Shown here: positions 32,629-38,792 of the stretch, piece by piece | How the letters are laid out: every line of letters starts with the position of its first letter | How positions within the stretch are numbered: the stretch's first letter is position 1 | Assembly: GCA_000991135.1 (NCBI GenBank) | Contig: LBST01000013.1 | Span: 1 to 38,897, forward strand | Origin: Candidatus Roizmanbacteria bacterium GW2011_GWC1_37_12 | GTDB taxonomy: Bacteria; Patescibacteriota; Microgenomatia; UBA1406; GWC2-37-13 | Direction of reading: 5' to 3' | DNA: 38,897 nucleotides | Position numbers and translations under genes: made by a program | Notes under the pieces: generated by a model | Database searches by the model: none | Told to the model about the DNA's origin: nothing | Seen by the model: the letters and a program-made list of their open reading frames with translations, nothing else

Positions 32629-32913
32629 TTAGGTGGCTTCGACAACTTTCTTGGTTACCTTTCCATGACTTCTAAAGGTTCTTGTCGGAGCAAACTCTCC
32701 GAGCCGATGACCAACCATCGACTCCGAAACAAAAATTTCAATAAACTTTCTCCCATTATGGACTGCCAAATTATGACCGACAAATTCCGGGGCAATCTGT
32801 GAATCCCGAGACCAAGTCTTGATCGACTTGTTGTCATTAGATTCTTTTTGCTTCATAATTTTTTTAAAGAGTTTTTCGTCTATGTATGGGCCTTTTTTTA
32901 GTGATCGTGACAT
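32629..32913 (-). CDS. rpsS: 30S ribosomal protein S19, displaced to between S14 and S8
   Basis: A 94-residue S19 of normal length and sequence: [42 protein letters not shown] and [19 protein letters not shown] use ATG 32913; the frame is open from 32940 but the nine extra residues are not family residues. The normal place of rpsS is between rplB and rplV; here those two genes are separated by only 2 nt and rpsS lies after rpsN. Reading direction and spacing (20 nt after rpsN, 7 nt before rpsH) keep it in the operon. Confidence 0.97.
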
Positions 32914-37974: not shown

Positions 37975-38667
37975 TTAACTTCTAACTTCTACTAGCCCCC
38001 CTTTGAATCCTGGAACTAATCCACTAACAACAATTCCATCTTCTTTAACTTCGACAACTTCCAATCCTTTGACAGTCACTCTGTCGTTACCCATTCTTCC
38101 AGCCATTCTCTTACCTTTAAAAACTCGTCCTGGAGTGGTCGTCATTCCGATTGATCCGGGAGCTCTTTCACCGTGGGACTGTCCGTGGGTGCGGGAACCG
38201 CCTTTAAAGTGATGTCTTTTAACAACTCCTTGGAATCCTTTTCCTTTGGAAGTTCCAGAAACCATTACCTTATCTCCCTTTTTAAAAAAAATCGTTGGCT
38301 TAATTTCTTGGCCAACGAGTATTTTTATTTCTCCGATTTGAACGCCTAATTTATTATTCTCATCGAGAAGTATAACTTTATCGCCCATACTTACCTGCCT
38401 GCCGGCAGGCAGGTCCATCCTGAACTCCCGTAAAAAACGAAGCGGGGTTTTTATCCCCGCTTTCTCTAGTTCTCCCATTCTCGGTCTTTTGATATTTTTG
38501 ATTTGACCAAATCCGAGCTTGACGCTAAAGTATCCATCTCTTGACGGAGTTTTGACGTCGGTAAGCCAACAGGAATTGGTTTTTATAAAAGTAGTCGGGA
38601 TCCTTTCGCCCTTATCATTAAATCTTTGCGATTGTGTAGATTTTGCACCTATTATAAAAGCTGGCAT
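37975..38667 (-). CDS. rplC: 50S ribosomal protein L3 with an inserted palindrome-coded segment
   Basis: A 230-residue L3, longer than the usual 205-210. Family blocks: MPAFIIGAKSTQSQRF at the start, FFKKGDKVMVSGTSKGKGFQGVVKRHHFKGG, and RAPGSIGMTTTPGRVFKGKRMAGRMG. Between LREFR (79-83) and VGQEIK lie some 34 residues where E. coli has about 8; they begin DLPAGRQV (85-92), encoded by a 22-bp perfect palindrome. The insertion sits in a loop of the outer beta barrel. The ATG follows an attenuator-like hairpin by 6 nt. It is the first gene of the superoperon inside the window; rpsJ is not found upstream. Confidence 0.96.
   Translation of the reverse strand: MPAFIIGAKSTQSQRFNDKGERIPTTFIKTNSCWLTDVKTPSRDGYFSVKLGFGQIKNIKRPRMGELEKAGIKTPLRFLREFRMDLPAGRQVSMGDKVILLDENNKLGVQIGEIKILVGQEIKPTIFFKKGDKVMVSGTSKGKGFQGVVKRHHFKGGSRTHGQSHGERAPGSIGMTTTPGRVFKGKRMAGRMGNDRVTVKGLEVVEVKEDGIVVSGLVPGFKGGLVEVRS
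38393..38414. repeat. 22-bp perfect palindrome inside rplC
   Basis: ACCTGCCTGCC is followed directly by its reverse complement GGCAGGCAGGT, a GC-rich island in an AT-rich gene. It is read in frame as DLPAGRQ(V). I recall the LPAGRQ peptide as an interrupting motif in other Microgenomates-type proteins, similar in concept to Rickettsia palindromic elements; that recollection needs a database check. Confidence 0.85.
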
Positions 38668-38673
38668 ATGACC

Positions 38674-38713
38674 AAAAAAAATAGCCCCAGATTGGGGCTA
38701 AAATCCAATCCGG
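38674..38713 (-). promoter_or_regulatory. Attenuator with alternative antiterminator in the rplC leader
   Basis: On the minus strand TAGCCCCA (38700-38693), loop ATC, TGGGGCTA (38689-38682) and then eight U (38681-38674) form a textbook intrinsic terminator, ending 6 nt before the rplC ATG. Alternatively CCGGATTGG (38713-38705) pairs with CCAATCTGG (38695-38687), nine base pairs including one G-U, which would break the terminator stem. A small hairpin CTTTG/CAAAG (38743-38739, 38730-38726) lies further upstream. Confidence 0.7.
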
Positions 38714-38763
38714 AAAATATTAATCCTTTGCTCCCGAACAAAGAACAATTAACATGTAGGCAA

Positions 38764-38792
38764 ATTATATACTATCAACTTATGGGGGTCAA
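38764..38792 (-). promoter_or_regulatory. Sigma70-type promoter of the rplC superoperon
   Basis: On the minus strand TTGACC (38792-38787), a 17-nt spacer and a perfect TATAAT (38769-38764). Transcription would start near 38757, giving a leader of about 90 nt that includes the attenuator. This is the best-looking full promoter in the window and places the start of the operon at L3, not S10. Confidence 0.8.

Follow-up and report, generated by a model that had tools for sequence, protein, structure and literature searches.

The window, which here means the whole 38,897-nt stretch of DNA that was analysed, comes from a genome of the Candidatus Roizmanbacteria type (Microgenomates, CPR). Its minus strand carries a ribosomal superoperon whose genes encode L3, L4, L23, L2, L22, S3, L16, L29, S17, L14, L24, L5, S19, S8, L6, L18, S5, SecY, adenylate kinase, Map, IF1, S13, S11, S4, RpoA, L17, L13, and S9. 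A first-pass annotation of this DNA had named the superoperon correctly in outline; about 30 same-strand genes, up to rpsI, form a putative single transcript. The rpsS gene (S19; 32665-32907, minus strand) lies between the S14 and S8 genes; its usual place is between rplB and rplV. Upstream of rplC, the first gene of the superoperon, the contig edge is reached after 230 nt. In relatives, rpsJ (S10) is found immediately upstream, and thus the promoter and leader considered here sit between rpsJ and rplC.

The promoter of the rplC leader has a score of 11 out of 12 and is among the best σ70-like matches in a scan of the 20-kb half window. It had been described in the first-pass annotation as TTGACC and TATAAT separated by 17 nt and followed by a leader, about 90 nt long, that runs up to the rplC ATG; both are present on the minus strand (Table 1). 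The same is true of two RNA structures that had been assigned to the leader: an intrinsic terminator (8-bp stem, 3-nt loop, eight U residues) located 6 nt before the ATG, and an alternative 9-bp hairpin that shares bases with it, occupying the inner part and the loop of the terminator. In a comparison with 200 dinucleotide shuffles, the window leader folds more stably than 197 (z -2.8). Absent from the earlier account was an upstream reading frame (uORF) that covers much of the leader and contains a further hairpin, P1.

Table 1. Features of the rplC leader and of rplC (positions in the window)
Feature	Positions	Strand	Remarks
-35 hexamer TTGACC	38792-38787	minus	TTGACC/TTGACG/TTGAAC-like hexamers in most relatives
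-10 hexamer TATAAT	38769-38764	minus	17-nt spacer from -35; predicted transcription start ~38757
Near-leaderless uORF, ATG TTA ATT GTT CTT TGT TCG GGA GCA AAG GAT TAA (MLIVLCSGAKD*)	38755-38720	minus	Frame and stop position kept across family and order
Hairpin P1, inside the uORF	38755..38717	minus	~-9 kcal/mol; hairpin in most relatives; possible pause hairpin
Antiterminator 5' arm CCGGATTGG	38713-38705	minus	Begins 6 nt past the uORF stop
Antiterminator 3' arm CCAATCTGG	38695-38687	minus	Shares bases with stem and loop of the terminator
Intrinsic terminator hairpin TAGCCCCA-ATC-TGGGGCTA	38700-38682	minus	8 bp, loop ATC
Terminator U tract, T8	38681-38674	minus	6 nt before ATG 38667; T run behind the stem in relatives too
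rplC (ribosomal protein L3), superoperon gene 1	37975..38667	minus	ATG 38667; without Shine-Dalgarno sequence
Terminator-like hairpin in rplC, AAGCGGGG-N7-CCCCGCTT-CG-TTTTTT	38462-38432	minus	Encodes AGIKTPLRFL

The 13-mer CCCCAATCTGGGG is present in exactly one copy per genome in 14 of the 20 genomes of the genus, and every copy lies in the rplC leader. A covariance model built from 11 leaders of the genus finds a single site in each of 53 of the 72 genomes of the family, nearly all adjoining rplC. Thus, the structure of the window leader is more than chance. A genome-wide family of terminators was also considered and was rejected, given that the 13-mer is present once per genome. When 66 rplC upstream regions of the family were read directly (some end at contig edges), a terminator was found in 52, and a complementary upstream arm is present in all 52. 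The complementarity score of this arm has a median of 22, versus 13 in shuffles, and is at least 18 in 40 of 46 leaders versus 5.8% of shuffles; the spacing between the two antiterminator arms ranges from 8 to 23 nt.

Covariation, which the first-pass annotation had proposed to look for in both stems, is strong in the terminator. Among 39 representatives of the family and order, 4 terminator pairs have changed on both sides, in 21 cells versus 6.2 +/- 2.0 in shuffles; the covariation of 0.277, compared with 0.148 in shuffles, is reached by 0 of 500 shuffles, and the signal is lost on sliding. The rival hairpin, in contrast, is nearly invariant: it is 95% paired, most of its changes replace A-U or C-G by G-U, one change alone is two-sided, and no covariation beyond such wobble changes was found in it. 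The antiterminator is therefore backed by conservation and wobble rather than by covariation. The rplC leader forms a conserved RNA structure in front of ribosomal protein (r-protein) genes, and its antiterminator and intrinsic terminator are mutually exclusive, as in an attenuator. The attenuation that had been claimed on the basis of the two hairpins appears well supported by their conservation across family and order and by the compensatory changes in the terminator.

The ATG of the uORF is located 8 nt behind the -10 hexamer and about 2 nt behind the predicted transcription start. Among 46 leaders of the family the spacing between -10 and ATG is 9 nt in 19, 8 nt in 17, 7 nt in 8, and 10 nt in 2, which implies an untranslated 5' stretch of 0-3 nt, with the start site predicted from the -10. 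The reading frame was evaluated by the position of its first in-frame stop, which was expected to end 20-40 nt before the terminator loop, in these 46 leaders and in 1000 dinucleotide-shuffled sets. In the ATG frame the stop falls within this interval in 40 of the 46 leaders. The two alternative frames give 5 and 10, and the shuffled sets give 8.7 +/- 2.6, with a maximum of 18 in the 1000 sets. With weighting by genus, the count is 20.7 of 24 in frame, compared to 3.0 and 3.1 in the other frames and 4.5 +/- 1.7 in shuffles. In two further families of the order, fetched after the hypothesis was formed, the frame holds in 8 of 8 cases, versus 0 and 1 of 8. The uORF is 7 to 25 codons long, terminates with TAA (31), TAG (11), or TGA (4), and in 43 of the 46 leaders stops 1-15 nt before the antiterminator arm.

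The peptides specified by the uORF, however, are wholly different across family and order (for example, MLIILCSGTKD, MLFSLVRCTSELS, MIFHKQRKKEKKF, and MPIDILVIGIRAQ), and no residue or codon beyond the start is shared by them. Within the genus, the variable sites of the uORF are even over the three codon positions (5, 6, and 4), without codon-position bias. Because the positions are kept while the peptides differ, these comparisons indicate that selection acts on the frame, start, and stop of the uORF and not on its peptide; conservation of stop-codon position can in this way expose uORFs whose peptides are not conserved. Thus far, promoter, uORF, stop position, and mutually exclusive hairpins are all found by comparing sequences. 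The leader has the short ORF between promoter and terminator that is typical of ribosome-mediated attenuators; regulatory codons for an amino acid made by the operon are lacking, since no codon is conserved in the family or order and the operon makes no amino acid. The rplC leader is an attenuator-like variant rather than a classical amino-acid attenuator.

Leaderless mRNAs, or leaderless AUGs, can be bound directly by 70S ribosomes (PMC9031893). In the window, a -10 hexamer stands 6-10 nt ahead of the ATG in many genes (for example, those starting at 652, 2797, 6353, 8093, 14646, and 19822), and Shine-Dalgarno sequences are rare. This suggests that leaderless transcripts are common in the lineage, and leaderless translation would thus seem to be normal for this organism.

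When a stop codon occupies the A site, the ribosome masks roughly 9-12 nt of the RNA past it; the footprint used here, 9 nt beyond the stop, was assumed. Measured from the end of the uORF stop, the antiterminator arm lies at a median distance of 7 nt and the terminator stem at 26 nt, so that a ribosome at the stop would cover the 5' arm of the antiterminator without reaching the terminator stem. In 35 of the 46 leaders, no more than 9 nt separate the stop from the start of the arm. The antiterminator and terminator are about equally stable (medians of -13.3 and -12.7). In most leaders the equilibrium structure is the complete terminator, whether or not a ribosome is present. Equilibrium folding therefore does not discriminate and was set aside as evidence for a switch, whereas co-transcriptional exposure does. 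As the RNA grows, it is the antiterminator that forms first (mean of 0.96 with 4 nt exposed past the loop), before the bases of the terminator emerge. Masking by a stop-bound ribosome brings the terminator earlier; in the window leader it reaches 0.84 rather than 0.00 at 6 nt exposed, and 1.00 rather than 0.03 at 7 nt. The direct-path barrier out of the antiterminator, computed for three leaders, is about 17 kcal/mol in that of the window. Since the terminator wins at equilibrium regardless of the ribosome, attenuation by ribosomes needs kinetic trapping, and the modelled co-transcriptional folding supports a kinetic switch of this kind.

The best explanation for these features is that the rplC leader functions as a ribosome-mediated transcription attenuator, which on the sequence comparisons we consider probable. 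With transcription starting about 2 nt before the AUG, the nascent RNA would first offer a leaderless short ORF. A ribosome translating the uORF and standing at its stop would cover the 5' arm of the antiterminator, CCGGAUUGG; with this arm covered, the downstream terminator would fold and RNA polymerase would leave before rplC. If, instead, the ribosome is absent or held near the start, the antiterminator would pair first with CCAAUCUGG and trap the terminator sequences, and the operon would be transcribed. In such a system, the signal would be whether any ribosome initiates on the uORF and reaches its end, and ribosomes would thereby feed back negatively on their own synthesis. Because start and stop positions are conserved and peptide and codons are not, it is most likely translation capacity, and not a single amino acid, that the switch responds to; the quantity sensed is probably the supply of 70S ribosomes that can initiate on leaderless RNA. 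From the sequence, then, we infer translation of the uORF, regulated termination, the direction of control (more ribosomes, less r-protein), and the signal. This reading rests on features found across the order, and it predicts that a one-base mutation of the start codon raises read-through.

Several known systems share parts of this arrangement. In mycobacteria, leaderless uORF attenuators include polycysteine leaderless sORFs (Canestrari 2020, as cited in PMC13236596), and further candidates are found in PMC4633059; as predicted for the rplC leader, their transcripts open with a leaderless short ORF that acts on the operon that follows. However, the mycobacterial uORFs contain clusters of cysteine codons and control cysteine genes, whereas the rplC leader has no conserved codon and precedes an r-protein operon. 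The rplC leader also resembles attenuation of the trp/ilv type (M. tuberculosis ilvB1, PMC13236596), in which the uORF stop adjoins the antiterminator arm and a stop-bound ribosome blocks the antiterminator, allowing the intrinsic terminator to form. It differs in its lack of regulatory codons, its near-leaderless start, and its target, the ribosomal superoperon. The L10(L12)4 attenuator of B. subtilis rplJL likewise places a terminator/antiterminator switch before the genes of an r-protein operon; there, however, an anti-antiterminator is the binding site of the protein, and the leader peptide is encoded past the terminator (PMC4538822), while the uORF of the rplC leader precedes both hairpins and there is no known protein site. 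Finally, the L4 leader of the E. coli S10 operon exerts terminator-based control of the same gene cluster, but requires L4 and NusA and is confined to some gammaproteobacteria (PMC10931766). The rplC leader, unlike it, sits between rpsJ and rplC (in relatives) and has no Rfam similarity. A literature search, with most subscription journals outside its scope, gave no precedent for ribosome-mediated control of r-protein operons. To our knowledge, r-protein operons are controlled by a ribosomal protein binding its own mRNA. If true, the attenuator would let translating ribosomes feed back directly, and leaderless initiation would serve as the sensor.

The first-pass annotation had proposed L3 or L4 as the ligand of the switch. 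Autogenous attenuation of r-protein operons is indeed established (PMC4538822; PMC10931766), and L3, L4, or another product of the operon might bind P1 (loop UUCGGGAA) and promote termination, in the manner of L10 in B. subtilis rplJL or L4 in the E. coli S10 leader, the uORF being secondary. P1 forms a hairpin in most leaders, and the leaders of group B retain P1 and its loop without the terminator. Within P1, several genera show TYGGGA again, and its occurrence in each of the three reading frames is a sign of constraint at the level of RNA. The recurring element, UUCGGGA, in three reading frames, is not explained by ribosome-mediated attenuation. However, the loop is not conserved family-wide; P1 is a different hairpin in many other genera, with a stem of the UUUUCC/GGAAAA type. 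No Rfam r-leader matches the rplC leader: at the gathering threshold neither the window nor 12 related loci gave a match, and those at E up to 10 were weak chance matches. In addition, an r-protein ligand leaves unexplained why an open frame with a fixed stop is kept while the rest of the frame changes. The arrangement of the B. subtilis L10 type (AAT/AT/T), with an upstream hairpin that excludes the antiterminator, is not found here, as P1 ends at 38717 and the arm begins at 38713; an overlap of this kind was seen by eye in the g31 clade only. Thus, with no Rfam match, a sole candidate loop (UUCGGGAA) that is not kept family-wide, and a strong uORF that points to the ribosome, the proposed L3/L4 sensor found no positive support, and we regard control by an r-protein ligand as unlikely. 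A pseudoknot between the P1 loop and the antiterminator arm was considered by eye, but the loop is also kept where the arm is missing, in group B, and the idea was dropped. The P1 loop may resemble part of 23S rRNA domain VI; the sarcin-ricin sequence was looked for in the genome itself and gave no hit.

Other readings account for still less of the leader. In amino-acid or arrest-peptide attenuation, specific codons or the nascent peptide would stall the ribosome, and a peptide of the form MLxILCSGxKD does recur within the genus. However, the absence of any shared residue or codon after the start across family and order, together with the even spread of variable uORF sites over codon positions in the genus, makes such stalling very improbable. 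The location of rpsJ immediately upstream in relatives could also mean that the terminator is leaky, constitutive, and unregulated, a punctuation that insulates rplC from the rpsJ transcript. Yet a terminator placed downstream of the promoter of rplC would block that promoter as well, and it would require neither the complementary 5' arm, present in 52 of 52 leaders, nor a positioned uORF; simple punctuation is accordingly quite improbable. Lastly, the inverted repeat C(C/A)(G/A)GATTGG ... CCAATCTGG, which in the DNA lies just past the promoter, might be an operator for a dimeric transcription factor. Because the spacing of the arms varies from 8 to 23 nt, this is hardly credible; moreover, variation within the arms is largely G-U wobble, and the second half site always falls within the covarying terminator with its U tract.

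Ribosome-mediated attenuation, as preferred here, also has to accommodate leaders that depart from the common arrangement. Five members of the genus (L008, L014, L015, L016, and L019) have kept the promoter and uORF and lost the antiterminator and terminator. In these the uORF is 34-41 codons long and reaches 50 nt into rplC, out of frame with it, and could repress translation instead; in the same five leaders a U run is found directly behind P1. The uORF ATG is displaced or missing in six leaders (L012, L020, L178, L192, L194, and L197), and the stop lies beyond the antiterminator arm in two (L169 and L176). In L012, a seemingly truncated rpsJ is fused directly to the rplC antiterminator and terminator, without promoter and uORF, reflecting either a deletion or an assembly artefact.

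A second terminator-like hairpin is present within rplC itself (Table 1), and was found in 42 loci of the family; many other loci end before its position. Its stem codons and U run are nearly invariant at synonymous sites among 31 genomes, the identity of the stem codons being 0.87-1.0 compared to a median of 0.34 for 4/6-fold columns elsewhere. The codons are GCG in 29 of 30, GGG in 28 of 30, ACC in 30 of 30, CCG in 29 of 30, CTT in 30 of 31, and CGT in 28 of 28. The hairpin may act as a further terminator, one sensitive to translation.

Leaders with terminators are likewise found between rpsJ and rplC in other families of the class, with unrelated sequences; among 12 loci compared with Rfam, there was no match. 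In family f17 (L221, L223, L231, L235, L245, L255, and L261, joined by L246 from f29) there is a uORF M...EV..AT* and a terminator GCGACxCTATGTGGTCGC. Here the stop codon of the uORF is found inside the antiterminator arm GCTACATAG, which pairs with CTATGTGGT; the logic is the same in a different sequence. By eye, the arms change together between L221, L245, and L246 and seem to covary. Tentatively, and with somewhat less than even confidence, we propose that in the Microgenomates class (CPR) the ribosome pool sets the output of the superoperon through short ORFs of free peptide sequence set against antiterminators, in several lineages with unrelated RNA, and that a translation-sensitive terminator inside rplC adds a second gate.

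Additional conserved sequences were observed in the rplC leaders of other families. In several families (L215, L217, L221, L254, L264, and L267) the leader uORF contains GGAGGTG, often as ATGGAGGTG; this sequence is Shine-Dalgarno-like, has no start codon at the usual distance, and might bind 30S subunits. The rplC leaders of f4 (L224-L226, L228, L266, L271, and L272) share a large conserved element, CAGTAGATCGCGCGTC..GATACGGCGA..ACTGAGTGA..TCACTCTTTTT, which has no Rfam match and is a candidate r-leader. Three unrelated conserved elements occupy the rpsJ-rplC gap in f8 (L219, L227, L239, L242, L248, L249, and L251; GGTATACTT..CCAAAAGTCTCGGATG), f13 (L258 and L262; GTGGGCAGAGAGAATTGCCAAACTATTGCTCCGGTACCGTAAGG), and f18 (L259, L263, and L268; ATCGTGGATAAAGTTCGTCATTAGCCACG).
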